Assembly: GCF_037094685.1 (NCBI RefSeq)
Contig: NZ_CP146614.1
Location: forward strand, 6,200,001-6,264,000
Reading direction: 5' to 3'
Origin: Massilia sp. METH4
GTDB taxonomy: Bacteria; Pseudomonadota; Gammaproteobacteria; Burkholderiales; Burkholderiaceae_D
Length of the DNA stretch: 64,000 nt
A program made the position numbers and the translations under genes. Below the pieces are notes generated by a model. That model saw only the letters and a list, made by a program, of their open reading frames with translations, did no database searches and had not been told where the DNA came from. Below, one piece after another: positions 9,518 through 25,256 of the stretch (its first letter is position 1; the number at the start of each line of letters is the position of its first letter).

Positions 9518-12223
9518 ATGAAGAATACCAGCGACCTTGCAGCATCCAGCGGCGATGGAGCGCCCTCCTCGTCGCCCTCCCTCGCCCCCTCCCTCGCACT
9601 GGAGCAGGCGGCGGCCGCGCTGGCCCGTGGCGACCATGTCACCGCCCTGTCACTGCTGCGTCCGCTGGCCGACCTTCAAGCGCCATCGGCCGCGCTGTCG
9701 CCCGCGCAGTCATCGGATCTGTGGCGACTCCTCGCCGAAGCCGTCCAGGCGCAAGGAGGCGACCCGCTGCCGGAGCTCGTCCGCTGGGTCGAAAGCGATC
9801 CCGGCAATTCCACCGCACACCTTCAACTGGGCCACGCCCTGCAAGACCATGGCGAGCTCGCTGCCGCGAGCAACAGCTACCGCCATGCGCTGAGCGCCGA
9901 TCCCGCTAACCTCGAAGCGCTCGTCGAACTCGGCAGCGTCGAACAGGGCATGGGCAACCACGGCGTGGCCGTCGAGTGCTACCAGCTCGCCCTGAAACTG
10001 GCTCCCAAGCTGCACCAACTCTATCCTTCGCTGGCCTCGGGCCTGCACGCGCTGGGCCGCTACGAGGAAGCCAGCGCGGCGTGGTCGAAGGCACTGCGGC
10101 TCCTTGGCGACGATGCCCTGTACCACTACGGGCGCGCCGAGTCGCTGCGCGCCTGGGGCCGGCTGGGGGAAGCCCTCAACGCCAGCGAGCGGGCCGTCAA
10201 GCTAGTGCCGGACGATCCGGCCGCGCTGCAGCAGCTGGCGTCGCTGCAGATGGCGCTGGGCAAGACGCGCGACAGCGCGCTCAATTTCGGCAAGGCCCTG
10301 CTGGGCGACCCGCACAATGTGCAGGCGCACATCGACTTCGCCGCGGTGCTGCACCAGCTCGGGCTCGACGACGAAGCGCTGGCCCACCTGCGGGACGCGC
10401 TGCGCATCGATCCGCAGTCCTGGCTCGCGGCGGGCAACCTCGGCGGCCTGCTGGTGGAACTGGGGCGCCACGCCGAGGCCGTTCCCCTGTTGCGCCAGGC
10501 GCTCGAGATCAAGCCCGACTATGCCTTTGCCTTGAACAATCTGGGCACGGCCTTGCATACGCTGGGCCAGCGCGACACCGCGGTCGACTACTTCCGTGCG
10601 GCGATCGGCGCGGACCCGGGCTTCATCGATGCCTATCGCAACCTGTCCGTCGTGCTCAGCCAGCTGGGCCGGCACCGCGAATCGTTCGAGAACAGCGTGG
10701 TCGCGATGGCCCTGGCGCCCGACGATGCCGAGCTGCTTCTCAACCTCGCCAATGCGCAGGCCGCGATGGGCCAGCTCGACCGGTCGATCGCCCACCTGCG
10801 CAAGGCCGCGCGGCTCGATCCGAAGGCGGCCAACATCCGCTCGAACCTCGCGCATTACCTGAGCGTGGCCGGCGACACCGCGGCGGCCATCGAGATGAGC
10901 CGGCAAGCGATCGCGCTCGATCCGGCGTTCACCGGCGCCCATTCGAACCTGCTGTTCTACCTGGCCCATGGCGATGCCGACATCGCGGCGTCGCGGGCCG
11001 CGCACGAGACCTACGCGAAGCAGTTCGAGCGCCAGGACCGCTGGATCGGGCGGCACGAGACGGACAACGACCCCGACCGGCGCATCCGGCTGGCCTTCAT
11101 CTCGGGCGACCTCTACCACCACGCCGTGGCCAATTTCATCCGCCCGGTGCTGGAACAGCTGCGCCACGATCCATCGCTCGAGCTGGTGATCTACTACACC
11201 AACACCGTGAACGACAGCGTGAACGCGGCGCTGCGCGCCAGCGTGCCGTTGTGGCGCGACGTCAGCGATCTTGCGGACGACGCTCTGGAAGCCCTGATCC
11301 GCGCCGACCGCATCGATGTGCTCGTCGACCTGTCGGGCCACACCGGCTTCAACCGGCTGCACGTGCTGGCCCGCAAGCCCGCACCGGTGCAGGTAACGTG
11401 GATCGGCTATCCCGGCACGACCGGGCTGCGCGCGGTCGATTATTTCCTGACCGACCCGCACCTGTTGCCGCCGGGCCGCTTCGACGACCACTACAGCGAA
11501 CGCATCGCCTACCTGCCCGCGTCTGCCGTGTTCCAGCCCGCCGACGAGCAGGTGGACGTCAACCCGTTGCCCGCCCTGCACAACGGCCACCTCACGTTCG
11601 GCAGCTTCAACCGCGCCAACAAGATCCATGCCGGGGTCGTGCAATTGTGGGCCAAGGTCCTGGCGGCTGTGCCGGATTCGCGCCTGCTGCTGGGTGCCCT
11701 GACGAGCGACGGCCAGAAGGCGGCAATGCGCGAGCAGTTCCAGGCCGCCGGGATCGGCGGCGAGCGCCTGGTATTCCATGAACGTGGGAGCATGCGCGAT
11801 TACCTGGCCCTGCACCACCAGGTCGACCTGTGCCTCGACACCTTCCCCTATACGGGCGGCACGACGACCCTGCACGGATTGTGGATGGGCGTGCCGATCG
11901 TCACGCTGGCGGGGGCGACGACGTCCGGCCGCACCAGCGCGGCGATCCTGAGCCACCTGGGGCTGAACGACTTCATCGCGGAAACGCCGGAGCAATTCGT
12001 GCGCGCTGCCGCCGGCTGGGCCGGCAGGACGGAGGAACTCGCCGCTTTGCGCGCCGCGCTGCGCGAGCGCCTGGAGCAATCGGCCCTGGCCCGCCCCGAC
12101 CGGCTCGCCGCCAACCTGAGCGCGATGGTGCGGCTCATGTGGCACCGCTGGTGCAGCGGCATGCCGGCCGACACCCTCTACCTGGAGCCGGCCGGCCAGC
12201 CCCCGGCCGCGCTCGAGGAATGA
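9518..12223 (+). CDS. TPR-repeat O-GlcNAc-transferase-like glycosyltransferase (GT41)
   Basis: 901 aa. The first ~60 residues are Ala/Ser/Pro-rich. Residues ~85-490 are a run of about a dozen TPR repeats (NLEALVELGSVEQGMGNHGV and similar 34-residue units) for target binding. The C-terminal ~380 residues are a SPINDLY/OGT catalytic region: RLAFISGDLYHHAVANF (~524), DVLVDLSGHTGFNRL, VTWIGYPGTTGL, FNRANK (~697, the Lys that contacts UDP in human OGT), and LDTFPYTGGTTTLHGLWMG (~772). These key residues are kept, so it should be active on Ser/Thr in the cytosol. It opens an island that ends with a paralogue just before the flagellins, so flagellin is the likely target. Donor sugar unknown. Confidence 0.88.
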   Translation: MKNTSDLAASSGDGAPSSSPSLAPSLALEQAAAALARGDHVTALSLLRPLADLQAPSAALSPAQSSDLWRLLAEAVQAQGGDPLPELVRWVESDPGNSTAHLQLGHALQDHGELAAASNSYRHALSADPANLEALVELGSVEQGMGNHGVAVECYQLALKLAPKLHQLYPSLASGLHALGRYEEASAAWSKALRLLGDDALYHYGRAESLRAWGRLGEALNASERAVKLVPDDPAALQQLASLQMALGKTRDSALNFGKALLGDPHNVQAHIDFAAVLHQLGLDDEALAHLRDALRIDPQSWLAAGNLGGLLVELGRHAEAVPLLRQALEIKPDYAFALNNLGTALHTLGQRDTAVDYFRAAIGADPGFIDAYRNLSVVLSQLGRHRESFENSVVAMALAPDDAELLLNLANAQAAMGQLDRSIAHLRKAARLDPKAANIRSNLAHYLSVAGDTAAAIEMSRQAIALDPAFTGAHSNLLFYLAHGDADIAASRAAHETYAKQFERQDRWIGRHETDNDPDRRIRLAFISGDLYHHAVANFIRPVLEQLRHDPSLELVIYYTNTVNDSVNAALRASVPLWRDVSDLADDALEALIRADRIDVLVDLSGHTGFNRLHVLARKPAPVQVTWIGYPGTTGLRAVDYFLTDPHLLPPGRFDDHYSERIAYLPASAVFQPADEQVDVNPLPALHNGHLTFGSFNRANKIHAGVVQLWAKVLAAVPDSRLLLGALTSDGQKAAMREQFQAAGIGGERLVFHERGSMRDYLALHHQVDLCLDTFPYTGGTTTLHGLWMGVPIVTLAGATTSGRTSAAILSHLGLNDFIAETPEQFVRAAAGWAGRTEELAALRAALRERLEQSALARPDRLAANLSAMVRLMWHRWCSGMPADTLYLEPAGQPPAALEE

Positions 12224-12240
12224 GCAGTGCACGGCTTGTT

Positions 12241-12269
12241 TTGCGGACAGGGAGGTCACGGGTTACAAT
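12241..12269 (+). promoter_or_regulatory. Sigma-70-like promoter of the aminotransferase operon
   Basis: TTGCGG, a 17-bp spacer and TACAAT lie in the gap after the first GT41 gene, about 75 bp before the 27-codon leader ORF. This suggests that the sugar-building genes form a transcription unit separate from the first transferase. Confidence 0.5.
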
Positions 12270-12346
12270 TGCCGCGCATCAACATCGGGCGGCATCGCCG
12301 ACCGCATGTCGAGGCGGTCGAGCATTAACGTCATGAGGATGCCAGA

Positions 12347-12430
12347 ATGAAAAACAACATCTGCACGGCGTGCCGCAATGCGCCGGCCGTAGCCTCCGTC
12401 CCGGCGGCGGGCGGGAGGAACGCGCAATGA
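12347..12430 (+). CDS. 27-residue leader ORF coupled to the aminotransferase
   Basis: ATG AAA AAC AAC ATC TGC ... to TGA encodes MKNNICTACRNAPAVASVPA plus seven residues, with a C-x2-C pair. Its TGA overlaps the ATG of the aminotransferase (ATGA), the same coupling used by other pairs in this island. GAGGAT lies about 8 bp upstream. It could be a real small protein, a regulatory leader peptide, or a chance frame; no family recognised. Confidence 0.4.
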   Translation: MKNNICTACRNAPAVASVPAAGGRNAQ

Positions 12431-13545
12431 AAGAGGCACCTCGCTCCCCCGTCTATGTCACGCAGCCGGCTTTGGCGCCGCTGGAAGAATTCATCCCCTA
12501 CCTGCAACAGATCTGGGACAACAAGATCCTGACCAACGGCGGCCCGTTCCACCAGCAGCTGGAGCAGGAACTCGCCCGTTACCTGGGCGTGCCGCATCTG
12601 TCGCTGTTCTCGAACGGCACGCTGGCGCTGATGACGGCCATGCAATCGCTGCGCATCACCGGCGAAGTCATCACGACGCCCTATTCGTTCGTCGCCACGG
12701 CCCACTCGCTGCTGTGGAACGGCATCAAGCCCGTGTTCGTCGATATCGAGCCCGATACGTTCAACATCGACCCGCGCCAGATCGAGGCGGCCATCACCCC
12801 GCAAACGACGGCGATCCTGCCCGTGCACTGCTATGGCCGCCCCTGCAACGTGGAAGAGATCGAAGAGATTGCCGCCAACTATGGCCTGAAGGTCATCTAC
12901 GATGCCGCCCATGCGTTCGGCGTGCAGCACCGCGGCAGCAGCGTGCTCAACCACGGCGACCTGTCGGTGCTGAGCTTCCATGCGACCAAGGTGTTCAATA
13001 CCTTCGAGGGCGGCGCCATCATCTGCAAGGATGCCCGCACCAAGCGCCACATCGACCACCTGAAGAACTTCGGCTTCGCCGACGAAGTGACCGTCGTCGC
13101 GCCGGGCATCAACGGCAAGATGAGCGAGGTGAACGCGGCGTTCGGCCTGCTCCAGCTCAAGGGCATCGATGCCGTGCTGGCGGCCCGGGCCGCGGTGGAC
13201 CGGCGCTACCGCACCGGCCTGCGCGACGTGCCGGGCATCGAATGCCCGCAAGTGCCCGAGGAAACGCACCCGAACCACTCGTATTTCCCGATCCTGGTGC
13301 AGCCTGGCTATCCGCTCACCCGCGACGAACTGTATGAAAAACTGCGGGCCGCCGGCTTCTATGCGCGGCGCTATTTCTATCCGCTGATCAGCGAATTCCC
13401 CATGTACCGGGGCATGCCGTCGGCGCGGCGCGACAACCTGCCGGTCGCCATGCGGCTGTCGCTGCAGGTGCTGTGCCTGCCGATCTATCCGGACCTTCCC
13501 GCCGAGCGGCAGGACGCGCTGATCGAGCTGATCCTTTCAGTGTAA
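12427..13545 (+). CDS. DegT/DnrJ/EryC1/StrS-family sugar aminotransferase
   Basis: 372 aa. A fold-type-I PLP enzyme: substrate/cofactor loop LFSNGTLALMTAMQSLRITG, DAAHAFGVQHRG with the PLP-contacting Asp, and LSFHATKVFNTFEGG with the internal aldimine Lys at about residue 188. This family transaminates keto-sugar nucleotides using glutamate, making amino sugars such as those on flagellins and O-antigens. The ATG at 12427 is preferred: GGGAGG is upstream and the family begins near here. The product probably receives an acyl group from the next gene. Confidence 0.9.
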   Translation: MKEAPRSPVYVTQPALAPLEEFIPYLQQIWDNKILTNGGPFHQQLEQELARYLGVPHLSLFSNGTLALMTAMQSLRITGEVITTPYSFVATAHSLLWNGIKPVFVDIEPDTFNIDPRQIEAAITPQTTAILPVHCYGRPCNVEEIEEIAANYGLKVIYDAAHAFGVQHRGSSVLNHGDLSVLSFHATKVFNTFEGGAIICKDARTKRHIDHLKNFGFADEVTVVAPGINGKMSEVNAAFGLLQLKGIDAVLAARAAVDRRYRTGLRDVPGIECPQVPEETHPNHSYFPILVQPGYPLTRDELYEKLRAAGFYARRYFYPLISEFPMYRGMPSARRDNLPVAMRLSLQVLCLPIYPDLPAERQDALIELILSV

Positions 13546-13551
13546 GGCTCC

Positions 13552-14220
13552 ATGAAAACCATCATTTTCGGCAACGGCGCGACGGCCCGCCTGCTCCACT
13601 CCTATGCACGGCACAGCATGGACATCGTCGGCTTCACGGCCGACGACGCGTATGTCGAAGGCGATACGTTCCTGGGCCTGCCCCTGGTGCCCTTCAGCGC
13701 GCTGGAACGGCATTTCCCGCCGGCCGAGCACGCGGCGATCGTCGCCATCGGCTTCATCGACATGAACGGCTTGCGCGCGCGCCGCCACGCCGACCTGGCC
13801 GAACGCGGCTATCGCCTGGCCAGCTATGTCCACCCATCCGTGTTCCGGCACGACGGCGTGACCATCGGCGAGAACTGCATCATCCTCGACCACGTGTCCA
13901 TCCACCCCGGCTGCACGATCGGCGACGGCACGTTCATCTCCAGCAATGTCAACCTCGGCCACGACTGCCGGATCGGGCGCTTCAACTTCATCAACTCGGG
14001 CATCGCGCTGGCCGGCGGCTGCGTGGTGGGGGAAAGCTGCTTCTTCGGGGTGAACGCCAGCGCCGCGCACGGCAAGACCATCGGCGCGCGCAACTTCATC
14101 GGCGCCAACACCTTGATCTCGAACGATACGGCGGACGACCAGGTCTGGCTGCCGGAGCCGGCACAGCTGTTCAGGTTGAAAAGCCGCGCCTTCCTCAAAT
14201 TCTCGAAAATGCTGGGATAA
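13552..14220 (+). CDS. NeuD-like sugar O/N-acyltransferase, left-handed beta-helix
   Basis: 222 aa. The N-terminal ~75 residues are a Rossmann-like PglD_N domain (MKTIIFGNGATARLLHSYAR). Residues ~90-200 are hexapeptide repeats ([LIV]-G-x4), e.g. VTIGENCIILDHVSIHPGC and CTIGDGTFISSN, followed by a short tail. This is the NeuD/PglD architecture. PglD acetylates the amino group of a UDP-4-amino sugar made by a DegT aminotransferase, which is the gene just upstream. Because an ACP and an adenylating ligase follow, the donor here may be an acyl-ACP rather than acetyl-CoA; that is inference. Confidence 0.88.
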   Translation: MKTIIFGNGATARLLHSYARHSMDIVGFTADDAYVEGDTFLGLPLVPFSALERHFPPAEHAAIVAIGFIDMNGLRARRHADLAERGYRLASYVHPSVFRHDGVTIGENCIILDHVSIHPGCTIGDGTFISSNVNLGHDCRIGRFNFINSGIALAGGCVVGESCFFGVNASAAHGKTIGARNFIGANTLISNDTADDQVWLPEPAQLFRLKSRAFLKFSKMLG

Positions 14221-14223
14221 CAG

Positions 14224-15774
14224 ATGAGCATCAACGACAGCCGCGTCGCCCCGCCCTTCTTCGCGCATGCCGCGGCGCACCCGGACAAGCTGGCCATCTG
14301 GTGCGACGGCCGCACGGCCACGTACGCCGGGCTGTCGGCCCTCGTGCGGCGCTGGTCGTATGCGCTGGCCGAGCGCGGCGTGCAGCCCGGCGAACAGATC
14401 GGCGTGCTGCTCCCCAACAGCATCGAATTCGCCGCGCTGCTGGTCGTGGCGGCCGATCTGGGCGCCAGCCTCGTTCCGCTGAACACGTCGCTCACGCCGG
14501 ACGCGGTGCGGCGCGCGTTTGCCGCCACCGAAGTGCGGCACCTGGTGGCCGGCGCCGGCCAGCTGGAAGCGCTGGCGGAAGGGTCCGCCCAGCCCGCCGT
14601 GCCCGGCTTGCAGGTGTCGGTCGACGCCGCCGTGCCCGGCGCGGTGACGTTGGACGAACTCATCGCGGCGGTCGCGGCCGACGTGCCGCCGCGCGACCTC
14701 GGCAAGCCGGAGCATGCACTGATCCTCACGATGACGTCCGGTTCGACCGGCGATCCGAAGCCGATCGTGTTGCCCCAGCGCACCAAGGTGAACCGGGCGG
14801 CGGCCGCGGTCGAGATGTATGGCGTGCATGCCGATGACGTCATCCTGGCGGCCACGCCGCTGTATCACTCGCTGGCCGAGCGCCTGGTCCTGATGGCATT
14901 CATGCATGGCGCGACGTCGGTCGTGATGGCGCGCTTTTCCACCGCCGCCTGGCTGCGCTGCGTGGCGCAGCAGCGCGTGACGTTCACGATCGCCGTGTCG
15001 TCGCAGTTGCGGCAGATCGTCACCGAGTTGCGGACGCCCGGCAGCCACGACCTCACGAGCCTGCGGTGCGTGGTGTCGTCGTCCGCCGCGCTCGACAACG
15101 CCACGAAGGACGAGCTGCTGGCGCGCATGGATTGCGCCTTTCACGAATGCTATGGCACGTCCGAGATCGCCATCGCCAGCAATCTCGACAGTTCCAGCGC
15201 GGCCGGCAAGCTGGCCTCGGTCGGCTGCCCGGCGCCCGGCGTGGATATCCGTATCCTGGGGCCTGGCGACGTCGAACTGCCGCCTGGCGCCGATGGCGAG
15301 ATCGTCTGCAAGACCCCGATGCTGTTCGGCGGCTACTACCACCGGCCGGATTTGACCGCTGCCGCCATGTGGGGCGAGTACTTCCGCACCGGCGACCTGG
15401 GCTGTCTCGACGAGGACGGCTTCCTGTACTACCGCGGCCGCGCCAAGGACCTGATCATCACGGGTGGCGTGAATGTCTATCCGGTCGATGTGGAGGCGGT
15501 CGTGGCCACCCTGCCAACCATTAAAGAATGCGCGGCTTTTGCCGTAGCCGATGAAAGGCTGGGCGAGGTCGTCGGCGTGGCCCTCGTGTGCGAGGACCCG
15601 GCGGCCTTCAACCTGCGTGCCCTGCGCATGCTGTGCGCCGAGCGGCTCGCCGACTTCCAGCAGCCACGCCACTATTTCGTTGTCGAAGCACTACCGAAAA
15701 ATCCGATGGGAAAGATCATGAAATTCGAGCTTGTCAGGCAGTTCGGCAAATCCGCCACGGCGGCCGCGCAATGA
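14224..15774 (+). CDS. Class I adenylate-forming enzyme (acyl-CoA/acyl-ACP ligase)
   Basis: 516 aa ANL-superfamily enzyme. The P-loop-like motif LTMTSGSTGDPKPIVLPQ is at ~167-184. ECYGTSEIA is A5-like. YFRTGDLGCLDEDGFLYYRG is at ~385-404. The catalytic Lys of NPMGKIMKFEL is at ~495. It activates a carboxylic acid as acyl-AMP and transfers it to a thiol. The ACP two genes downstream is the natural acceptor, but CoA is possible. It starts 3 bp after the acyltransferase stop, and its TGA overlaps the next ATG, so it is tightly operonic. Acid substrate unknown. Confidence 0.9.
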   Translation: MSINDSRVAPPFFAHAAAHPDKLAIWCDGRTATYAGLSALVRRWSYALAERGVQPGEQIGVLLPNSIEFAALLVVAADLGASLVPLNTSLTPDAVRRAFAATEVRHLVAGAGQLEALAEGSAQPAVPGLQVSVDAAVPGAVTLDELIAAVAADVPPRDLGKPEHALILTMTSGSTGDPKPIVLPQRTKVNRAAAAVEMYGVHADDVILAATPLYHSLAERLVLMAFMHGATSVVMARFSTAAWLRCVAQQRVTFTIAVSSQLRQIVTELRTPGSHDLTSLRCVVSSSAALDNATKDELLARMDCAFHECYGTSEIAIASNLDSSSAAGKLASVGCPAPGVDIRILGPGDVELPPGADGEIVCKTPMLFGGYYHRPDLTAAAMWGEYFRTGDLGCLDEDGFLYYRGRAKDLIITGGVNVYPVDVEAVVATLPTIKECAAFAVADERLGEVVGVALVCEDPAAFNLRALRMLCAERLADFQQPRHYFVVEALPKNPMGKIMKFELVRQFGKSATAAAQ

Positions 15775-16928
15775 TGAGCACGCAATCCGGCACGATGCCC
15801 ACCACGCCCCTGCGCATCGCCTTCATCGGCGGCGCCGTCAACTCCGCCGTGGGCTATTCGCATTTCGTCGCCAGCACCATGGACCGCCGCTGGGAACTGG
15901 TGGCCGGCTGCTTCAGCACGCAGGAAGAGGACAACCGCGAGACGGCGGCCGCCTATGGCATTCCCGCCGATCGCCTGTATGCGAGCTGGCCGGACCTGGT
16001 GGCAGCCGAGCGCGGCCGCATCGACGCCGTCGCGATCCTCACGCCGATTCCGGCGCATCACGACATGGTGGCCGGCTGCATGCGCGCGGGCATTCCCGTC
16101 ATCTGCGAAAAGGCGCTGGCCGGCACGCCGGAAGAGGCGCGCGCGCTGCTCCAGCTGCGCGACGAGCTCGGCGCCTTCCTCGGCATCACGTACAACTACA
16201 CCGGCTACCCGATGCTGCGCGAACTGGCGCGCAAGGTCCGTTCGGGGCAGCTGGGCCGTATCCTGCACTTCCAGGCCGAGATGCCGCAGGAAGGCTTCGT
16301 GCGCACCGACGGCCGCGGCAACAAGCCGTCGCCGCAGCCCTGGCGCCTGGCCGACGGCGCGGTGCCGACCCTGCACCTGGACCTGGGCACGCACCTGCAC
16401 CAGATCGTGCATTACCTCACCGGCGAACGCCCGCTCGACCTGGTGGCGGACCAGAACCACTATGGCTGGTTCGACGGCGTGGTCGACAATTCCAGCTGCC
16501 TGGCCCGCTACAGCGGCGACATCCAGGGCCAGTTCTGGTTCAGCAAGTCCGCGCTCGGCCACCGCAACGGCTTGCGCATCCGCATCTATGGCGACCTCGC
16601 GTCGGCCGAGTGGTACCAGCTGTCGCCCGAGGAATTGCTCGTGTCGCACCGCGACGGCCGCCGCGAGCTGCTCGACCGGGCCGGCGCGTGCGACGTCGCC
16701 ACCGCGCGCCGCTACAACCGCTTCAAGGCCGGCCACCCGGCCGGCTTCCTGGAAGCCTTCGCCAACCTGTATGGCGACCTGGCGGACTGCCTGCAGCAGT
16801 ATCGCGCCACCGGCACGTGGCAGTCGGCCGAAGTGTTCAGCGCCGAGCTGGCGCTGGAAGGCCTGCACTTCCTGGAAGCGATGGTGCGCTCCACGCAATC
16901 GCGCGGCTGGGTAGCCGTGCAACGCTGA
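15771..16928 (+). CDS. Gfo/Idh/MocA-family oxidoreductase
   Basis: 385 aa. The N-terminal Rossmann domain opens LRIAFIGGAVNSAVGYSHF. EKALAGTPEEARALL holds the conserved EK pair. The C-terminal alpha/beta domain follows (GRILHFQAEMPQEGFVRTDG). The family oxidises or reduces sugars and sugar nucleotides with NAD(P); here it would supply or reshape the keto sugar for the aminotransferase. The start at 15771 overlaps the ligase stop (ATGA); an ATG at 15774 is equally possible. Confidence 0.88.
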   Translation: MMSTQSGTMPTTPLRIAFIGGAVNSAVGYSHFVASTMDRRWELVAGCFSTQEEDNRETAAAYGIPADRLYASWPDLVAAERGRIDAVAILTPIPAHHDMVAGCMRAGIPVICEKALAGTPEEARALLQLRDELGAFLGITYNYTGYPMLRELARKVRSGQLGRILHFQAEMPQEGFVRTDGRGNKPSPQPWRLADGAVPTLHLDLGTHLHQIVHYLTGERPLDLVADQNHYGWFDGVVDNSSCLARYSGDIQGQFWFSKSALGHRNGLRIRIYGDLASAEWYQLSPEELLVSHRDGRRELLDRAGACDVATARRYNRFKAGHPAGFLEAFANLYGDLADCLQQYRATGTWQSAEVFSAELALEGLHFLEAMVRSTQSRGWVAVQR

Positions 16929-16944
16929 CAACAAAGGGATCATC

Positions 16945-17199
16945 TTGAACGAGCCGATTCGCCAGCGCATCCTGGCGCTACTGCAACGCAAGGGCGGCCT
17001 GCCGCCCGGCTTTACCGACGACACCGACTATATCGATGAAGGCATCGTGGATTCGCTCGCCATCGTCAAGTTCATCGTCGACCTGGAAAAGGCGTTCGAC
17101 ATCGAATTGACGGACGAAGACATCGAATCGCCGGCCTTCCGCACCGTGGCGGGCCTGACGGCGCTCGTCGGCGGCAAGCGCCCCAATGCCCCCCTATGA
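16945..17199 (+). CDS. Acyl carrier protein
   Basis: 84 aa. A four-helix ACP with the phosphopantetheine serine at residue 37 in DEGIVDSLAIVKFIVDLE and the usual acidic helix II/III (DIELTDEDIESPAFRTV). The start is an uncommon TTG at 16945; AAAGGGA lies a few bases upstream and no in-frame ATG or GTG fits. Its TGA overlaps the next ATG. It is a stand-alone carrier outside any fatty-acid operon and has no ketosynthase neighbour. It probably carries the acid loaded by the ligase at 14224. Confidence 0.93.
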   Translation: MNEPIRQRILALLQRKGGLPPGFTDDTDYIDEGIVDSLAIVKFIVDLEKAFDIELTDEDIESPAFRTVAGLTALVGGKRPNAPL

Positions 17200-18299
17200 G
17201 TAAGCACCCGCAATTCGCTTCGCCGGCCGCGGCGGCGGATGCCTTTCTCGCGCCGGGACAGGCGGTGGGGCGCTATCTGCTCGGCCGCAACGAGCATGCC
17301 GCCGCGCTGCTGGACATTCCGGCCATCGCCGCGCTGGTCGACGGCATCATCGACGACCGCGCCACGGAACCCGCGTGGCGCGGCAAACCCGTGCTGCGCG
17401 GCGAGCAGGTAGCGGCGCCGGCGCTGGCGGTGAACTGCTCGATGTCGATCAGCCCGGTATCGGCCGCCCGCCGGCTCGCCGCGCTCGGTTTCGCGCCGCT
17501 GCATTACGCCGACCTGCTGGAGGCGCGCCCGGACCTGGTGCCGGCGCCCCCGTTCGTCGCCGAGATGCGCGCCGACCTGGCCGCCCACGCGAACGAATGG
17601 GCGGCGCTGGCCGAACGGCTGGCCGACGACGCTTCGCGCGCCGTGCTGCGCGACCTGGTCGCCTATCGCGGCAGCGCCCATCCGCGCCACATGGCGGGCT
17701 ACACCGTGCGCTTCGACGAACAGTATTTCGAGCCCTTCATGCCGCTGCACGGCGAGACGTTCGTGGACGCTGGCGGCTTCGATGGCGACACCACCGAACA
17801 GTTCTGCCGGCGCGACCCGGCCTACCGCGGCGTGATCCTGTTCGAGCCCTCGGGCGCGAACATCGCCCGGGCCCGGGAGCGCCTGGCCGGCCGGCCGAAC
17901 ATCCGCTTCGAGGAGATGGGCGTGTCGGATGCGCCGGGAACGCTCTCCTTCGACCCGCATGCCGGGTCGGCCAGCGCCGTCAGCTCGTCGGGTACCGTGT
18001 CCATTGCGGTGACGACGATCGACGAGGCCGTCAGCGAACCGGTCAGCTTCATCAAGATGGACCTGGAAGGCTGGGAAATGCGCGCGCTGGCCGGTGCCGC
18101 GCGCCATATCCGCGCCGACCATCCGAAACTGGCGATCGCGGTGTACCACAGCGCGGCCGATTTCCGGCACATTCCCGCCTACATCCTCGGCCTGCGCGAC
18201 GACTATGCCGTATACCTGCGCCATTACTCCGAGGGCTGGTCGGAAACCGTCATGTTCTTCGTGCCGCGTACGCGGCGCGACACCCTACAGGATCAATAG
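17196..18299 (+). CDS. FkbM-family SAM-dependent methyltransferase
   Basis: 367 aa. The C-terminal ~200 residues hold the SAM fold: ETFVDAGGFDGDTTEQFCRR at ~187 (motif I), ILFEPSGANIARARERL (motif II acidic residue), and FIKMDLEGWEMRALAGAARH (FkbM signature DxEGxE). The first ~150 residues are a less conserved N-terminal extension that may recognise the substrate. FkbM enzymes O-methylate sugars and related small molecules. It is translationally coupled to the ACP (ATGA). Confidence 0.88.
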   Translation: MSKHPQFASPAAAADAFLAPGQAVGRYLLGRNEHAAALLDIPAIAALVDGIIDDRATEPAWRGKPVLRGEQVAAPALAVNCSMSISPVSAARRLAALGFAPLHYADLLEARPDLVPAPPFVAEMRADLAAHANEWAALAERLADDASRAVLRDLVAYRGSAHPRHMAGYTVRFDEQYFEPFMPLHGETFVDAGGFDGDTTEQFCRRDPAYRGVILFEPSGANIARARERLAGRPNIRFEEMGVSDAPGTLSFDPHAGSASAVSSSGTVSIAVTTIDEAVSEPVSFIKMDLEGWEMRALAGAARHIRADHPKLAIAVYHSAADFRHIPAYILGLRDDYAVYLRHYSEGWSETVMFFVPRTRRDTLQDQ

Positions 18300-18300
18300 C

Positions 18301-19032
18301 ATGCCTACTGCTTCCCGCTCAACCGTCCGCGACATCCGCCCCAAGGTGCTGTTCCAGCTGATCGAGGCGATGCACCCGGAGTCGAATCCCACGTTCTCCG
18401 TGAACATCCCCAGCAGCGCGATCGGCGGCGCCACGCTGCTGGAAAGCGCCGTGCTGGTCAGCCTGGCCAGGCTGACGGGCGCGCAGTCGTTCTTCGAATT
18501 CGGCACCTACATGGGTGCGACCACGCTGCTGCTGGCCACCAACTCGCCGGACTCCGCCCACGTGACGACGGTGGACCTGCCGCCCGAAGCCATCGACACG
18601 GCGGCGGCGGACGACGCCGCGCTCGTGTTGCAGGACGATACGGCCAACGACAATTTCCTGCGCCGCGAATTCGCCGCCAAGGGCGGCGCCTGCATCGACC
18701 GCGCGCCCGCCGCCATCCAGGCGAAGGTGACGCGCCTGCTGCAGGACACGCGCACGATCGACCCGGTGGCGCAGGGCCTGGCCGGCCGTTTCGACTTCAT
18801 CTTCATCGACGGCGGCCACGACTACGACACGATCGCCAGCGATACGGCCGTCGCCCTGCAACTGGCGCGGCCCGACGCGGTCATCGCCTGGCATGACTAC
18901 CGGTCGGCGATCCACCAGGACGTGACGCGCTTCCTGGACGGCTACGATGCGCCGGCCCAGCTGGTGCACGTGCAGAACACGATGATCGCCTTCATGCTGA
19001 CGGGGCGTTTCGCCAACCTGCTTCCGGACTGA
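18301..19032 (+). CDS. Class I SAM-dependent methyltransferase (Methyltransf_24-like)
   Basis: 243 aa. Motif I SFFEFGTYMGATTLLLATNS follows ~60 N-terminal residues. HVTTVDLPPEAIDT gives the acidic motif, and FDFIFIDGGHDYDTIASD with DAVIAWHDY is typical of the Methyltransf_24/cephalosporin-hydroxylase-like group acting on sugars. The chosen ATG is 1 bp after the previous stop; the frame is open further upstream but only as a shadow of the FkbM gene. A second member of this group lies at 20160. Confidence 0.83.
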   Translation: MPTASRSTVRDIRPKVLFQLIEAMHPESNPTFSVNIPSSAIGGATLLESAVLVSLARLTGAQSFFEFGTYMGATTLLLATNSPDSAHVTTVDLPPEAIDTAAADDAALVLQDDTANDNFLRREFAAKGGACIDRAPAAIQAKVTRLLQDTRTIDPVAQGLAGRFDFIFIDGGHDYDTIASDTAVALQLARPDAVIAWHDYRSAIHQDVTRFLDGYDAPAQLVHVQNTMIAFMLTGRFANLLPD

Positions 19033-19038
19033 GCCCTG

Positions 19039-20100
19039 ATGACCGACCACGTCTCATCCGCCCCAGCGGCAGCCCACGATGCGGCCCACGGCGCGGCCCA
19101 AAGCGCGGCCCGTACGCCGGCCTGGTACCGCTCGCCGCTCGCGCGCGACGAACTGGCCGCGCTCAGCCGGCGCAGCAACCTGCGCGGCTGGTTGCAGGCG
19201 GGCGGCCATCTGCTGCTGTTGCTGGCCACGGGCACGCTCACGCTCGCGCTGTTCCGCCACGGCCACTACGCGGCGGCGCTCGTGGCGCTGCTCGTGCATG
19301 GCGGCTGCTACGGCTTCCTCGGCTGGGCCGGGGCCGGCCATGAACTGAGCCACCGCACGGTGTTCGCGAGCCGGCGCCTGAACGATGCCTTCCTCGCGCT
19401 GTTCGCGTTCCTGACCTGGAACAATCCGGTGTACTTCCGCGCCAGCCATGCGCGCCATCACCAGAAGACGGTCCATGACGGCGAGGATTTCGAAGTGCGG
19501 CTGCCGCAGACCACGCGCCGGGGCGACTGGCTCTGGGCTTGCACGTTCAACGTGCCGGCGATGGTGCGCGCCGTGCGCATCGTGGTCGAGAACAGCCGCG
19601 ACGTGGTGAAGGGGCCGGCCGGGCAATTGCTGTTCGCCGACCGGGCCGGCGCCCCGCGCCGCGACCTCGTGCGCACGGCCCGGCGCACGCTCGGCGGCCA
19701 CATCGTGCTCGCGGCGGGTTTCCTTGCCACGGGCAACTGGGAGCTGCTGCTGCTGGTGACGCTGGCGCCCTTCGTGGGCGACTGGCCGAGCAAGCTGCTG
19801 GCGCTGGCGCAGCATTACGGCATGGAGCCGAACGTCGCCGATTTTCGCCGCAACAGCCGCACCGTGCTGCTGCACCCGGCGTGCGCCTGGCTGTACTGGC
19901 AGATGAATTACCACATCGAGCATCATATGTATCCGGCGGTGCCGTTTCACCAGCTCGGGCGCCTGCGCGACGCCATCGCGAACGACCTGCCGGCGCCGAC
20001 CGTGGGCCTGCGCGGCATCGTGGCCGAGATCCGGTCCGGCCGGCTGGCGCGTGCCTCGCTGCCCGGCGCCCCGCGCAGATTTTCCGAACAACGCGACTGA
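19039..20100 (+). CDS. Fatty-acid-desaturase-like membrane di-iron enzyme
   Basis: 353 aa. Three histidine boxes of the membrane desaturase/hydroxylase superfamily are present: HELSH (~100), HARHH (~136) and HIEHHMYP (~292). Hydrophobic helices lie at ~55-95 and ~220-250. The spacing resembles desaturases acting on small or carrier-bound substrates such as rhizobitoxine RtxC. It introduces a double bond or hydroxyl using O2 at the inner membrane. Being between methyltransferase genes and near an ACP, it may act on the acyl group of the glycan. That substrate is inference. Confidence 0.85.
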   Translation: MTDHVSSAPAAAHDAAHGAAQSAARTPAWYRSPLARDELAALSRRSNLRGWLQAGGHLLLLLATGTLTLALFRHGHYAAALVALLVHGGCYGFLGWAGAGHELSHRTVFASRRLNDAFLALFAFLTWNNPVYFRASHARHHQKTVHDGEDFEVRLPQTTRRGDWLWACTFNVPAMVRAVRIVVENSRDVVKGPAGQLLFADRAGAPRRDLVRTARRTLGGHIVLAAGFLATGNWELLLLVTLAPFVGDWPSKLLALAQHYGMEPNVADFRRNSRTVLLHPACAWLYWQMNYHIEHHMYPAVPFHQLGRLRDAIANDLPAPTVGLRGIVAEIRSGRLARASLPGAPRRFSEQRD

Positions 20101-20159
20101 CTTCGCGCGCCCGCCGCCGCTGCCGTGGCGCGCATTGTGCGCATTACCTGGACAACAGT

Positions 20160-21269
20160 ATGAACATGCAATCCCCGTCCGACGACAAGCCCATCCTCAT
20201 TTTCCCGGCCGGCATGCCCCGTTCGCTCGACTATCTGGCCCGTTGCCAGCGCGAGGGCCGGCACGCGATCGGCTCGTCGTCGCTCGCCTATGACGTGGCC
20301 AAGCCCCTGTATCCCGAATGGGCGCACCTGCCCTTCGTGAACGCCGCCGACTTTCCGGCCGAACTGGCCGCGCTCATCGAAGCGCGCGGCATCGCGGGGA
20401 TCTACACGCCGAACCCGGTCGTGTGGAGCTTCCTGAACGAGCACCTGCCCAGCATCAGCCCTGGAGTGAAACTGCTCAATGCCTGGCCCGTCTCGGAAGA
20501 GCTGGCCGGCTACGTGGCGGCGGAAGAACGCGCCGGCGAGCTGGCGGCGAACGGCCTCGCGCTCGCGCACGATCACGTCGAGCAGCCTGCCATGCACCCG
20601 CGCGCGCTGGCCGCGCTGTTCCGCCATGCCAACGTGATCCCCGGCATGAGCGACAACGAGAAGATCGGCGCGCTGTACGAAATCGCGCGCCGCTGCCCGC
20701 CTGGCGACCTCGTGGAAATCGGCACCGCTTTCGGCAAGTCGGCCTTCGTGCTCGCGAACCTGGCGCGCCACTACCGGCTCGGCAAGTTGCTCTGCATCGA
20801 CCCGTGGCAACCGGAGTTCGTGGTGCAGAACGATGACGGCGGGCTGGTCGACAGCTGCCGCGAAAAGTACGACTACGACCAGGCCTTGCGGGTGTTCGAG
20901 ATCAACCTGCTGCCGTACAGCGATGGCGACGTCAACTACCTGCGCATGCCCTCGTTCGAAGCGGTGGAACTGTACCGTGCCGGCACCCCCGTCGAGTCGC
21001 CCACCTTCGGCCAGACGCGCTACCAGGGCGGCATCGCGCTGCTGCATGTCGATGGCAACCACAGCTACGAGTCGGCGAGCCAGGACGTGCGCCAGTGGTC
21101 CGAATTCATCGTGCCGGGCGGCTGGCTGGTGGTGGACGACTATGTGTGGCCCTATGGCGACGGCCCGCAGCGCGCCGGCGACGACTTCCTGCGCGAGCAC
21201 GCCGCGCGCATCGCCAGCGCGTTCGTCATCGGCACCGCACTGTTCGTGCAACTGGCCGTGCCGGCCTGA
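20160..21269 (+). CDS. Class I SAM-dependent methyltransferase with N-terminal extension
   Basis: 369 aa. About 170 N-terminal residues (PILIFPAGMPRSLDYLARCQ ...) resemble no domain I recognise; they have a sugar-enzyme-like Rossmann flavour. The C-terminal ~190 residues are a methyltransferase: DLVEIGTAFGKSAFVLANLA (motif I), LLCIDPW, LLHVDGNHSYESASQDVRQW, and GGWLVVDDYVW. The ATG at 20160 is chosen as the first Met after the desaturase stop. This is the third methyltransferase of the island, so the product may carry several O- or N-methyl groups. Confidence 0.83.
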   Translation: MNMQSPSDDKPILIFPAGMPRSLDYLARCQREGRHAIGSSSLAYDVAKPLYPEWAHLPFVNAADFPAELAALIEARGIAGIYTPNPVVWSFLNEHLPSISPGVKLLNAWPVSEELAGYVAAEERAGELAANGLALAHDHVEQPAMHPRALAALFRHANVIPGMSDNEKIGALYEIARRCPPGDLVEIGTAFGKSAFVLANLARHYRLGKLLCIDPWQPEFVVQNDDGGLVDSCREKYDYDQALRVFEINLLPYSDGDVNYLRMPSFEAVELYRAGTPVESPTFGQTRYQGGIALLHVDGNHSYESASQDVRQWSEFIVPGGWLVVDDYVWPYGDGPQRAGDDFLREHAARIASAFVIGTALFVQLAVPA

Positions 21270-21325
21270 CCGCGGCGCCCTCGCCGCCCCGCTTCCGAAT
21301 CAGCAAGACTTCGAACCACTTCACC

Positions 21326-24139
21326 ATGACCACCTCCGAAACCCAACTGGACGACCCCACCCTTTCCGCCGCCATCGCGCACCACCAGGCGGGACGCCTC
21401 GACGAGGCCGAGAGCGCCTACCGGGAAGTGCTGGCGCGCCGCCCGTATCACCCGCTGGCGAACCACAACCTGGGCATGCTGATGTGGCAGCAGGAGCGCG
21501 CCGCCGAAGGCTTGCCGTACCTGCGCCAGGCTTGGTCCGTGAATCCGGACGAAGGTCAGTTCTGGCTGTCCTACGCCGAAGGCTTGCTGCGTGCCGGCAA
21601 GCCCGCCGAAGCGCGCGACCTGCTGGCAGGCGCGCAGGCGCGCGGCCTGGACGGCCCACAGCTGCACGCATTGCAGGCACGTGTCGCCAGCGAACTGGCG
21701 ACGCGGCCCGCACCGGAAGACACGCAAGCCGTCGCGCAATTGTTCGGTGCGGGCGACTACGCCGGCGCCGAAGCGGCGGTACGCGCACTGATCGGGCGTT
21801 ATCCCACCTCCGGCATGTTATGGGGCATGCTCGGCACCATCTTGCAGGTCCAGGGCAAGGAAGCGCTGGCCGTGCTGGAAGAGGCGGCCCGGCTGTCGCC
21901 GGACGATGCGGAAAACCTCGTCGGCCTCGGCAATGCGCAACAGGGTGCCCAGCAGTACGTCGCCGCCATCGCGACTTACCGGCGCGCGCTGGCACTGGCG
22001 CCCGACTTGCCGGAAGCGTGGTGCAATCTCGGCAGCGCCCAGGTGGCCAGCGACGACCTGGAAGCGGCTGTCGACAGCTTCCGCCAGGCTTGCCGGCTGC
22101 GGCACGATTACCTGTTGGCCTACCTGAATCTCGGCAGTTGCGAAGCGGCGCTGGAGCGCCTGGAGGATGCCGCAAAAACGTACCGGCATGCATTGGCGCT
22201 GGCACCCGACGACCTCGACATCGCCAGTACGCTTGCCAACGTCCTGGGAGCGCTGGGCCGGCATGCCGAGGCTGCCGACCTGTACCGGTCGGTGCTCGAC
22301 AAGGCTTCCCACGACCCGGTGGCGTGGCTGCGGCATGGCCACGGCCAGCGCAACCTGGAGAACATGGACGAAGCGGCCGAAGCCTACCGCCGCGCCGAGG
22401 CGCTGTGCGGCGACCATGTGGACCTGCTGGTCGAGATCGGTGTCGGCTTGCAGTTCGTCGGCGCGCCGGACGATGCAAAGCGCGTCTACCAGCGCCTGCT
22501 GGAACTCGACCCCAACCAGGCCATCATCCAGGGCAATCTCGGCGTGATCTACGAAGGCGAGAAGGATTACGACCAGGCCTGCGTGCATTACCGCGCGGCG
22601 ATCGCGGCCGACCCCACGTTTGTCGACGCGCACCAGAACCTGGGCACTTGCCTGACCCACATGCTGCGGCCGGCCGAAGCGCTGGAGCAGTTCCGCCGGG
22701 TGCTGGAACTGCAGCCCGGCCACAAGGGGGCAATGCTCAGCATGTCCGCCGTGCTGGCCGAGCAGGGCTTGCTGGCGGAAGCGATCGCCAACAGCCGCGC
22801 CGCGCTGGAAATATTGCCGGGTAACCTGGAGCTGACCGGCAACCTGCTGTTTTGCCTGTCGCATTCGGACAATGTTTCCGCCGAAGAGCTCGCGGCCGAG
22901 CATTTCCGCTTCGGGTCGCACGCCGAGGGAATCGCCTGGGAAGAGCACCCGAACGACCGGAATCCCGACCGTGTGATACGGCTGGGCTTTGTCTCGGGCG
23001 ACTTCAACAACCACGCCTTGCACAACTTCTTTTCGCCGATCCTGGAACGGCTGCGCCATTCCGACCGCGTGCGCCTCTATGCCTACTACAACAATGAGCT
23101 GGAAGACCCGGTAACGGAGGAGTTGCGGCCATTCTTCAGCACCTGGCATTGCGTGCCGAAGATGAGCGATGAGGCGCTCGCCGCGCTGATCCGCAAGGAC
23201 GGTATCGATGTGCTGATCGACCTGTCCGGCCACACCAACCGCAACCGGCTCGGTGTGTTCGCCCGCAAGCCGGCGCCGGTGCAGGCGACCTGGATCGGCT
23301 ACCCGGGCACGACCGGGCTGAAGGCCATGGACTATATTCTGCACGATCGCCATACCCTGCTGCCGGAGATGGCGCCGCAGTTCACCGAACGCTTTGCCTA
23401 CCTGCCCTCGTGCGCCGTGTTCCGGCCCAGGAACGACCTGCCGCCGGTCAATCCGCTGCCGGCGGCCACGAATGGCTATATCACGTACGGCAGTTTCAAC
23501 CGCATCAACAAGTTGCGCCGGCCGGTCATTGCGCTGTGGTCGAAGCTGCTGCGCGCCCAGCCGACCTCGCGCCTGATGCTGGCCGGCCTGCCGACGGACG
23601 GCAACTACGGCCACTTGCCGGAGTGGTTCACCGAAGAGGGCATCGACCTGGCGCGCATCGATTTCCAGCCCCGCGTGTCCCTGTACGAATACGCATTCCT
23701 GCATCACAAGGTGGACCTGTGCCTGGATACCTTCCCGTACACCGGCGGCACCACCACGCTGCAATCGTTATGGATGGGCATTCCCCTGCTGACCCTGGCC
23801 GGCCCGACGCTGGCGGGGCGCAGCTCGGCCGGCGTGCTCGAGCAGTTGAACCTGCACGCTTTCGTGGCCGACAGCGAAGACACCTTCGTGGAACGCGGCC
23901 TGGCGGTAACGGCCCGCCTGGACCTGCTGGCCGACCTGCGCCAGCACATGCGCGCCCTCCTCAGCCTGGCGCCCATGAGCCGGCCGGACGTGGTGGCGAC
24001 CGCGCTGGAAGGTGCGGTGCGCCATATGTGGCACCGCTGGTGCGCCGGCGAGCAGCCGGAGACGTTCGAGATCGAGTACGAGATCACCCCGGCCACCAAC
24101 GCGGAGGTGCATGCCGCCGAGCTGGCGCGCGCGCTCTGA
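21326..24139 (+). CDS. TPR-repeat O-GlcNAc-transferase-like glycosyltransferase (GT41), second copy
   Basis: 937 aa. Residues ~10-520 are TPR-like repeats (AIAHHQAGRLDEAESAYREV and many more). The OGT/SPINDLY catalytic region follows: LGFVSGDFNNHALHNFFSP (~553), DVLIDLSGHTNRNRL, ATWIGYPGTTGL, FNRINK with the UDP-contacting Lys (~723), and LDTFPYTGGTTTLQSLWMG (~800). Its architecture matches the 9518 protein but the sequence is clearly divergent, so the two probably differ in target or sugar. It ends about 100 bp before the first flagellin, the natural acceptor. Cytosolic. Confidence 0.88.
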   Translation: MTTSETQLDDPTLSAAIAHHQAGRLDEAESAYREVLARRPYHPLANHNLGMLMWQQERAAEGLPYLRQAWSVNPDEGQFWLSYAEGLLRAGKPAEARDLLAGAQARGLDGPQLHALQARVASELATRPAPEDTQAVAQLFGAGDYAGAEAAVRALIGRYPTSGMLWGMLGTILQVQGKEALAVLEEAARLSPDDAENLVGLGNAQQGAQQYVAAIATYRRALALAPDLPEAWCNLGSAQVASDDLEAAVDSFRQACRLRHDYLLAYLNLGSCEAALERLEDAAKTYRHALALAPDDLDIASTLANVLGALGRHAEAADLYRSVLDKASHDPVAWLRHGHGQRNLENMDEAAEAYRRAEALCGDHVDLLVEIGVGLQFVGAPDDAKRVYQRLLELDPNQAIIQGNLGVIYEGEKDYDQACVHYRAAIAADPTFVDAHQNLGTCLTHMLRPAEALEQFRRVLELQPGHKGAMLSMSAVLAEQGLLAEAIANSRAALEILPGNLELTGNLLFCLSHSDNVSAEELAAEHFRFGSHAEGIAWEEHPNDRNPDRVIRLGFVSGDFNNHALHNFFSPILERLRHSDRVRLYAYYNNELEDPVTEELRPFFSTWHCVPKMSDEALAALIRKDGIDVLIDLSGHTNRNRLGVFARKPAPVQATWIGYPGTTGLKAMDYILHDRHTLLPEMAPQFTERFAYLPSCAVFRPRNDLPPVNPLPAATNGYITYGSFNRINKLRRPVIALWSKLLRAQPTSRLMLAGLPTDGNYGHLPEWFTEEGIDLARIDFQPRVSLYEYAFLHHKVDLCLDTFPYTGGTTTLQSLWMGIPLLTLAGPTLAGRSSAGVLEQLNLHAFVADSEDTFVERGLAVTARLDLLADLRQHMRALLSLAPMSRPDVVATALEGAVRHMWHRWCAGEQPETFEIEYEITPATNAEVHAAELARAL

Positions 24140-25103: not shown

Positions 25104-25129
25104 TCCACATCCGTCTCGCAGCCGTAACG

Positions 25130-25155
25130 AAAAGCCAACCTCGCGGTTGGCTTTT
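25130..25155 (+). terminator. Terminator of flagellin 1
   Basis: 11-bp stem AAAAGCCAACC / GGTTGGCTTTT with TCGC loop. The same stem recurs after copies 2, 3 and 4. Confidence 0.9.
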
Positions 25156-25219
25156 CGCTTTTTTGGCGTCCTCGCGCGCTCACACCGGGAAAGTAAAAGA
25201 GTTTTTGCCGCACGGCATT

Positions 25220-25244
25220 TAATAAGCGTCCGCGCCGCGTCGCC
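25220..25244 (+). promoter_or_regulatory. FliA-type promoter of flagellin 2
   Basis: TAAT, 15 bp, GTCGCCTTGTAT. The spacing equals that of the enterobacterial FliA consensus (TAAA-N15-GCCGATAA). Confidence 0.65.
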
Positions 25245-25256
25245 TTGTATTGATGA

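Follow-up and report, generated by a model that had tools for sequence, protein, structure and literature searches.

What do the 11 genes lying immediately upstream of five tandem flagellin genes in Massilia sp. METH4 make, and for which acceptor? A sequence-only reading of this locus, which occupies part of a 64,000-nucleotide stretch of DNA (hereafter the window), had proposed that the genes may build an unusual acylated, methylated amino sugar and attach it to flagellin. Because the genes are present with intact motifs, recur as a set and are linked to flagellins, we consider it probable that the locus is a flagellin glycosylation island, which would build a rare amino sugar, both acylated and methylated, and attach it to the flagellum. 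Open reading frame analysis and comparison with Pfam and NCBIfam profiles placed all 11 genes on the plus strand at 9518-24139, with open frames intact throughout, in the following arrangement.

7717..9384, plus strand: ETF-QO-like gene, a flank outside the pathway, named from its translation; the same neighbor is found at the flagellin locus or island in relatives
9518..12223, plus strand: GTa, TPR and GT41 transferase, 901 aa (Pfam Glyco_transf_41, 153 bits; conserved His and Lys motifs)
12427..13545, plus strand: DegT sugar aminotransferase, 372 aa (PF01041, 339 bits; nearest solved structure 2po3)
13552..14220, plus strand: NeuD/PglD/VioB-type hexapeptide N-acyltransferase, 222 aa (TIGR03570, 154.0 bits; nearest solved structure 4ea7)
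14224..15774, plus strand: acyl-adenylating (AMP-forming) ligase, 516 aa (PF00501, 233.5 bits; nearest solved structure FadD13, 3r44)
15771..16928, plus strand: Gfo/Idh/MocA oxidoreductase, 385 aa (PF22725, 59.6 bits; PF01408, 54.5 bits; nearest solved structure 3v5n)
16945..17199, plus strand: acyl carrier protein (ACP), 84 aa, TTG start (PF00550, 37.4 bits; DSL motif in the translation)
17196..18299, plus strand: FkbM-family methyltransferase, 367 aa (TIGR01444, 67.1 bits, cut-off 37.7)
18301..19032, plus strand: MT24a, Methyltransf_24 methyltransferase, 243 aa (PF13578, 56.2 bits; six island copies aligned)
19039..20100, plus strand: DES, membrane desaturase/hydroxylase-family enzyme, 353 aa (PF00487, 103 bits; three His boxes)
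20160..21269, plus strand: MT24b, methyltransferase with an extra N-terminal domain, 369 aa (PF13578, 67.4 bits)
21326..24139, plus strand: GTb, TPR and GT41 transferase, 937 aa (Glyco_transf_41, 149.6 bits; aligned to human OGT and plant SPINDLY)
24243..29402, plus strand: five tandem flagellin genes, 284-286 aa, the presumed acceptors (PF00669 matches), at 24243-25103, 25301-26161, 26383-27243, 27488-28348 and 28548-29402

Every gene that the sequence-only reading had named between two TPR/OGT-type transferases on one strand was found, with an open frame and a profile match, and the distance from the end of GTb to the first flagellin, put at about 100 bp, measured 103 bp. The description of the island as largely ATGA-coupled was overstated, as 4-bp overlaps occur at 2 of the 10 internal junctions (ligase/Gfo and ACP/FkbM), while five others are gaps of 1-16 bp and three are gaps of 56, 59, and 203 bp. 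Base composition (GC 62-71%, GC3 0.82-0.92) matches that of the ETF-QO-like gene and the flagellins and does not indicate recent import. A scan for sigma-28-like promoters upstream of the island genes and flagellins gave a top score of 9 (flagellin 3), a score of at least 9 being reached by 21 of 300 random segments, and we therefore propose no such promoter. Flagellin copies 2-5 are 95-99% identical to the first, and visual inspection of the flagellin sequences found no clear glycosylation site.

The sugar and the acid that these genes would supply, along with every other substrate and reaction proposed here, we infer from the families of the enzymes. For the DegT protein, the best match in NCBIfam is the model of DesI (dTDP-4-keto-6-deoxyglucose 4-aminotransferase), and the best match in the PDB is 2po3, which we take to be DesI; the 307.2 bits against the DesI model are below the equivalog cut-off of 650. 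The NeuD-type protein scores slightly below the TIGR03570 cut-off of 160.8, and its nearest solved structure is a perosamine N-acetyltransferase. Because both proteins score under their NCBIfam cut-offs, the identity of the sugar is uncertain. One RmlB above cut-off is encoded in the genome, outside the island. The DegT enzyme would aminate C4 of dTDP-4-keto-6-deoxyglucose derived from this RmlB to give a viosamine-type sugar, while the ligase would adenylate a carboxylic acid and load it on the ACP, from which the NeuD-type enzyme would transfer it to the amine. The Gfo/Idh protein, whose closest structure bears the name 'Oxidoreductase' only, may act with the methyltransferases and DES to make or decorate the acid, the sugar or both via oxidation and O-methylation. 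The combination of aminotransferase, acyltransferase, ACP and methyltransferase is that found in the viosamine island of the Pseudomonas syringae type. The ketoacyl-ACP synthase III and reductase families of VioS and VioR were absent from the 11 island genes in the Pfam and NCBIfam comparison; a synthase III gene is present instead in a different island (G106).

DES is assigned by profile (FA_desaturase cut-off 29.7) and His boxes, which are invariant in six sequences, to the membrane fatty-acid desaturase superfamily. Its matches to a hydroxylase model (GntB) and a desaturase model (DesB) are weak, and no PDB sequence match was found. A fold search with its predicted structure (76.4 pLDDT) returned, at E <= 0.001, only two chains, both from chloroplast motor complexes, which is not informative on the substrate. 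The low-confidence predicted structure of MT24b (61.8 pLDDT) suggests a C-terminal part like sugar O-methyltransferases and an N-terminal part with a weak likeness to ATP-grasp proteins (2pn1 and biotin carboxylases).

To follow the gene set in relatives, a strong match to MT24a was used as the selection criterion in a family sample of 392 genomes. Six genomes, including that of strain METH4, had such a match, and in all six the set adjoins flagellins. The nine inner genes, from DegT to MT24b, recur together with a GT41 gene beside flagellins in the five relatives (four Janthinobacterium-group genomes and Herminiimonas), and the arrangement is therefore not due to chance. MT24b seems broken in two of the five, and in one of these the downstream GT41 is also shortened. 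We considered whether the locus might be a natural-product cluster, with deoxysugar and fatty acyl tailoring, that lies upstream of flagellins by coincidence. The DegT protein and MT24b do resemble enzymes of antibiotic sugar pathways; however, the 11 genes include no polyketide or peptide synthase and no exporter, and the linkage to both GT41 and flagellins is kept in relatives. This explanation was set aside as very improbable.

A shorter form of the gene set, with a core of DegT, Gfo, FkbM, MT24a, and DES, adjoins flagellar genes in Candidatus Thiodiazotropha, which are clam symbionts. There, one ATP-grasp enzyme stands in place of the adenylating ligase, ACP and NeuD-type acyltransferase. 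The sequence-only reading took the ligase and desaturase as one module; this is not supported, since the genes that remain alongside the ATP-grasp gene include the desaturase as well as Gfo, FkbM and a Methyltransf_24 gene. The flagellar linkage was seen in three Ca. Thiodiazotropha records, all those long enough to reveal it. The sequence-only reading had named absence from relatives, or a lack of linkage to flagellins in them, as grounds for rejecting it, and on this point the outcome is mixed: linkage was seen in the six genomes and these three records, but two Limnobacter genomes carry the cassette with no nearby flagellin. The cassette occurs in free-living betaproteobacteria as well as in Ca. 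Thiodiazotropha.

The Limnobacter genomes bear on a further explanation, in which the activated sugar from the cassette goes to other proteins or to a surface glycan, and the vicinity of flagellins is simply a favored integration spot. Also consistent with this are the transferase adjoining the cassette in L. humi, which resembles protein N-glucosyltransferases, and a third GT41 located outside the island in the genome of strain METH4. However, the ligase/ACP form is flagellin-linked in six of six genomes, the Ca. Thiodiazotropha copies are flagellar-linked at a different kind of site, and in each of the five relatives all GT41 matches of the genome lie inside the island. On balance, we regard the integration-spot explanation as unlikely.

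The chromosomal site of the island lies between ETF-QO and flagellin. Of the same-genus genomes sampled, six could be read here, and five of these have an empty site; since most same-genus genomes do without the island, it is not required for flagella. Other islands occupy the same site in six loci, and in relatives it is either empty or occupied by other GT41/DegT islands. The locus shows two features of flagellin glycosylation islands: genes for glycosyltransferases and for making the sugar are inserted next to flagellin, and the occupancy of this one site varies among relatives. The first flagellins of other loci with GT41 and DegT are nearer to that of the window than those of empty sites are, and the ETF-QO proteins are not nearer. 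Given the flagellin-linked recurrence, the empty site in relatives, and the exchange of ligase, ACP and NeuD for an ATP-grasp enzyme, we therefore read the locus as a probable flagellin glycosylation island whose cassette is exchangeable.

By their TPR arms, Glyco_transf_41 domains above cut-off, and retained His and Lys motifs, presumably the catalytic residues, GTa and GTb are assigned to the GT41 (OGT/SPINDLY) family. The TPR arms would bind cytoplasmic flagellin, whose Ser/Thr residues would receive the sugar from the catalytic domains ahead of export. It is possible, though we doubt it, that flagellin first receives a plain sugar from one GT41 and then the modified amino sugar from the other, so that the island makes a cap only; the presence of two GT41 genes whose relatives differ would fit such a division, as would the modified viosamine of P. 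syringae, which caps rhamnoses (PMC3927599). However, Herminiimonas has a single GT41 match, its downstream GT41 being unmatched. Moreover, the GT41 enzymes known to us act on protein rather than sugar acceptors. If the flagellin island reading is correct, OGT-type enzymes would be tied to a tailored amino sugar; to our knowledge, OGT-type donors other than GlcNAc, glucose, and fucose have been little explored.

More tentatively, DegT, Gfo/Idh, FkbM, MT24a, and a membrane di-iron oxidase may constitute a transferable cassette for a hitherto undescribed amino sugar that is oxidized, O-methylated and N-acylated and that GT41-type enzymes use in protein glycosylation. The acid would be attached by either of two unrelated, interchangeable devices, the AMP ligase, ACP and hexapeptide transferase or one ATP-grasp ligase, and the oxidase would have the acid or the sugar, rather than a membrane lipid, as its substrate; protein glycosylation would then have recruited a membrane enzyme of the desaturase/hydroxylase type. 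The compact gene set in named species could serve as a handle on a flagellin sugar and on the acid and oxidation chemistry behind it, and the natural swap between the two devices makes the order of steps testable one gene at a time.

While the proposal of an N-acylated, O-methylated amino sugar island aimed at flagellin is retained, the accompanying novelty claim, that no described flagellin island was known to use OGT-type transferases with a ligase/desaturase module, is too strong, because flagellin islands with OGT-type transferases have been described. In a survey of enterobacterial flagellin islands (De Maayer and Cowan 2016, PMC4875605), GT41 was reported in 198 strains, along with fatty-acid-CoA ligases in 71, ACPs in 72, FkbM in 67, NeuD in 92, and DegT-type aminotransferases in 242. 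The portion of the survey consulted does not state whether a ligase gene and a GT41 gene occur in the same island. Like the locus described here, the enterobacterial islands are inserts of variable content at a flagellin locus, with GT41, DegT, NeuD, ACP, CoA ligase, FkbM and other methyltransferases (PMC4875605). In contrast, the enterobacterial site is fliC-fliA, and the term 'desaturase' is absent from the main text (PMC4875605).

The proven P. syringae flagellin island for acylated, methylated viosamine likewise has DegT-type, NeuD/VioB-type, ACP and methyltransferase genes, with an N-acylated, O-methylated 4-amino-4,6-dideoxy sugar as product (PMC3927599). In P. syringae, VioS (a ketoacyl-ACP synthase III) and VioR supply the acid, and VioT is 1,173 aa (PMC3927599). 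The island described here has an adenylating ligase instead and carries Gfo/Idh, FkbM and desaturase-like genes in addition. Caulobacter FlmG is, like GTa and GTb, a cytoplasmic TPR and GT-B transferase, and its TPR arm binds flagellins, but it transfers pseudaminic acid, and the name GT41 is unused in the FlmG text consulted (PMC7591256). In Shewanella oneidensis, the flagellin-modification operon sfmABCDE encodes a methyltransferase and also an ATP-grasp protein, with a shift in flagellin mass upon deletion; the glycan includes a putative nonulosonic acid, and the available text makes no mention of DegT, Gfo, or a desaturase (PMC3765264). Among the literature matches listed, no earlier description of the cassette was found, and the combination of DegT, Gfo/Idh, FkbM, methyltransferase and desaturase with two alternative acid-attaching devices looks new. 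Flagellin islands of this kind are thus already known, and what is unusual here is an exchangeable sugar-building set that includes an oxidizing enzyme.

The genome carrying the island is a single contig of 6.88 Mb and falls in the same family as Janthinobacterium and Herminiimonas. Translation and Pfam and NCBIfam profiles place eleven open-frame genes in the island (9518-24139, + strand), in the following order:

9518-12223, +, TPR and GT41 transferase (GTa)
after GTa, +, DegT
after DegT, +, NeuD-type N-acyltransferase
after NeuD-type, +, AMP ligase
after the ligase, +, Gfo/Idh
after Gfo/Idh, +, ACP
after ACP, +, FkbM
18301-19032, +, Methyltransf_24 (MT24a)
19039-20100, +, FA_desaturase-family enzyme (DES)
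20160-21269, +, Methyltransf_24 (MT24b)
21326-24139, +, TPR and GT41 transferase (GTb)

The island ends 103 bp before the first of five flagellins, confirming the sequence-only reading of a one-strand island ending about 100 bp before them. Intergenic distances from DegT through DES are -4 to 16 bp, with wider gaps upstream of DegT (203 bp) and on either side of MT24b (59 and 56 bp). The description of the genes as largely ATGA-coupled stands only in part, since some coupling is present but ATGA overlaps occur at just two of the ten junctions. Visual inspection shows that the region about 110 bp upstream of each flagellin (24243, 25301, 26383, 27488 and 28548) has an AT-rich element in common, with CGGCATTTAAT-like and GTCGCCTTGTA-like words behind it. 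Ahead of the first flagellin this element starts directly at the end of GTb, past its stop, so that transcription of the flagellins from a promoter of their own is possible. The genome has four more flagellins far from the window (L001-L004, at about 355-359 kb and 1250 kb), three of them long, with frames of about 510 aa, and the fourth about 281 aa in length. Its third GT41 gene is at 1488 kb, away from any flagellin match.

Inspection of the translations found the DSL serine of the ACP and, in the ligase, the adenylation loop TSGSTGDPK and a late lysine in NPMGK. The three His boxes of DES are invariant across six aligned sequences, and GTa and GTb share their His and Lys motifs with all eight aligned GT41 sequences of relatives. 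On the functional meaning that we presume for these motifs, the active sites of these enzymes look intact.

Four of the 145 family genomes, own counted, have a DES match at E <= 1e-20, the sole other close match (60%) being in Janthinobacterium psychrotolerans. A DES scan of named genomes confirmed 199 stretches, and the gene content of the best 80 of these was determined by tblastn with the window proteins. J. psychrotolerans (L053, genome G072) and J. lividum PAMC 25724 (L054, G618) retain the nine-gene run that starts at DegT and ends at MT24b, in unchanged order, together with GT41 and flagellins. Another 73 of the best 80 loci (about 36-45% DES identity), by title mainly MAGs of Chloroflexota, Spirochaetota and other phyla, had no island genes except weak Gfo matches in two. 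An MT24a profile at E <= 1e-30 matched 8 of 392 family genomes, strongly in six (own, G072, G618, G668, G673 and G551) and weakly in two (G106 and G136), the weak matches lying outside any such gene set. In the order it matched 3 of 250 genomes (own and G762 strongly, G829 weakly), and in the class 1 of 369 (own). Of 7997 candidates scored in a protein search, 327 were related to MT24a at E <= 1e-30; the names among the best 120 are those of Thiodiazotropha, Janthinobacterium, Limnobacter, Herminiimonas and Accumulibacter, besides a small number of other bacteria.

All six family genomes with a strong MT24a match have the ligase, ACP and NeuD-type genes and adjacent flagellins, in agreement with an island aimed at flagellin. 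GT41 genes stand on both sides of the set in the window, G072, G618 and G668, and in five relatives (G072, G618, G668, G673 and G551) all GT41 matches genome-wide fall inside the island. In Herminiimonas arsenitoxidans (G551), DegT is placed after MT24b, and a match to GT41 is confined to the gene on the upstream side; the one on the downstream side is 30% like the repeats of GTb. In G673, the downstream GT41 is shortened and scores below the cut-off. The MT24b match is split in G673 (L144:7753-9381), and its end departs from the common frame in G618 (L054:11007-12074), so that two of the five relatives seem to have a broken MT24b; together with the shortened GT41, this suggests that the island may be in decay or may be able to do without its last genes. 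In J. lividum, the stretch from the downstream GT41 to the flagellins contains a DegT fragment (L054:15638-15919; 60% to the window's DegT), as if left over from a swap of island parts.

A second form of the gene set occurs in Ca. Thiodiazotropha (L055, L056, L058), in the order DegT, ATP-grasp, Gfo, FkbM, MT24a, DES; ligase, ACP, NeuD and MT24b gave no match in these three records. ATP-grasp is assigned from a PF13535 match of 33.9 bits in L056, where the cut-off is 27. A flagellin lies a few kb downstream on the opposite strand in L056, L057 and L058, and translations of the intervening genes read like fliT, fliS and fliD, plus flaG in L057 and L058; L055 is cut within DegT and stops before any flagellin, and L057 is cut and starts at MT24a. 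L058 also has a GT41 upstream of DegT. Limnobacter humi (L073) and L. litoralis (G762) carry the ATP-grasp form with FkbM ahead of Gfo; the L073 ATP-grasp protein scores 25.1 against the Pfam cut-off of 27, yet is a 43% match to the Thiodiazotropha one. The surroundings of the G762 cassette showed no DegT. The fetched stretches of these cassettes (21 kb for L. humi, 40 kb for G762) contain no flagellin, and the G762 flagellins sit on other contigs:

L073:4524-12822, Limnobacter ATP-grasp cassette, no flagellin in the fetched stretch
L148:6906-12100, Limnobacter ATP-grasp cassette, no flagellin in the fetched stretch

These two cassettes argue against a strict flagellin link in relatives and suggest a wider role in protein glycosylation. 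The gene after DES in L. humi (HMW1C_N 28.5 bits, cut-off 27; NGTferase 218, cut-off 1000; Glyco_transf_41 21.2, below 25) has a predicted product that resembles a protein N-glucosyltransferase.

The ATP-grasp gene occupies the place held by ligase, ACP and N-acyltransferase in the first form. Enzymes of the ATP-grasp family typically couple a carboxylate and an amine. Such coupling has also been suggested for SfmE (PMC3765264). The simplest reading of these gene patterns is that both devices would attach an acid to the amine, while Gfo, FkbM, MT24a and DES would make or decorate the acid or the sugar under either. Because these four would act with either device, DES is set apart from the ligase; the two had been proposed as one module, an idea at odds with the retention of DES where ATP-grasp replaces ligase, ACP and N-acyltransferase.

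Regarding the substrates, the closest solved structure to DegT is 2po3 (234.6 bits), which we take to be DesI, but the nearest NCBIfam model, that of DesI, gives 307 bits against a cut-off of 650, so DegT is not called a DesI member. One RmlB above cut-off is present in the genome, at 858 kb. The NeuD-type enzyme is closest to perosamine N-acetyltransferase, the ligase to FadD13 and many acyl ligases, and Gfo to structures that carry only the name oxidoreductase. In a low-confidence predicted structure, the C-terminal part of MT24b appears like MeT1, MycF, SpnH and NovP.

The chromosomal site borders the ETF-QO gene (7717-9384) and was readable in six of the seven same-genus genomes of the 145-genome sample, the contig of the seventh (G120) starting at the flagellin. 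It is empty in five (L025, L032, L033, L034 and L035), where a flagellin follows ETF-QO within about 160-300 bp. In the sixth (G106, L015) a GT41 gene is followed by DegT and another GT41, and between them a ketoacyl-ACP synthase III gene lies on the other strand. Other islands with GT41 and DegT adjoin ETF-QO in L016, L017, L020, L028 and L030. That of L016 (16421-18836) encodes a Rieske oxygenase, a further oxidative step among the flagellin islands of the family, along with a hexapeptide transferase and a short-chain dehydrogenase, and similar genes occur in L017 and L030. At a different site, L040:7914-11706 has genes for an amino-acid-adenylation-type ligase (330 bits to TIGR01733, whose cut-off is 317.4), a hexapeptide protein, a dehydrogenase and a Methyltransf_24 protein, followed by GT41, DegT and flagellin; its product is possibly an aminoacylated sugar, and L037 has similar genes. 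A flagellin like the window's is present in 32 family genomes, own counted, and 28 upstream stretches were fetched (all but own, G092, G120 and G138). Among the 26 of at least 8 kb, 13 matched the window GT41 proteins (12 at >= 430 bits, G141 at 98), 11 of these also matching DegT (three at 39-40%). GT41 by itself occurs widely, in 79 of the 145 family genomes.

Identity of the first flagellin to the window's is 72-84% at the six other GT41 and DegT loci versus 63-74% at the five empty sites, while that of ETF-QO is 85-93% versus 86-94%. In a hand count over 30 pairs, the island locus had the closer flagellin in 28 and the closer ETF-QO in 4; the count omits four Janthinobacterium-group full-set loci, three with longer, partly aligning flagellins and L143 at 74%. 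As the groups are small and non-independent, with a single flagellin per site, the data are suggestive only of flagellin similarity tracking island presence.

Among open-licence PMC papers, no title on flagellin glycosylation with a desaturase was found, and none on flagellin glycosylation in Thiodiazotropha. The Geobacillus island (PMC5109656) contains FkbM, but TPR, GT41 and ligase are not mentioned in the portion consulted. Flagellin islands described in 2016 carry GT41 and also ligases, ACPs, NeuD, FkbM and DegT, with the co-occurrence of GT41 and ligase in a single island left unstated in the sections consulted (PMC4875605). The view that no described flagellin island uses OGT-type transferases is not supported, as GT41 flagellin islands were already on record in those sections.
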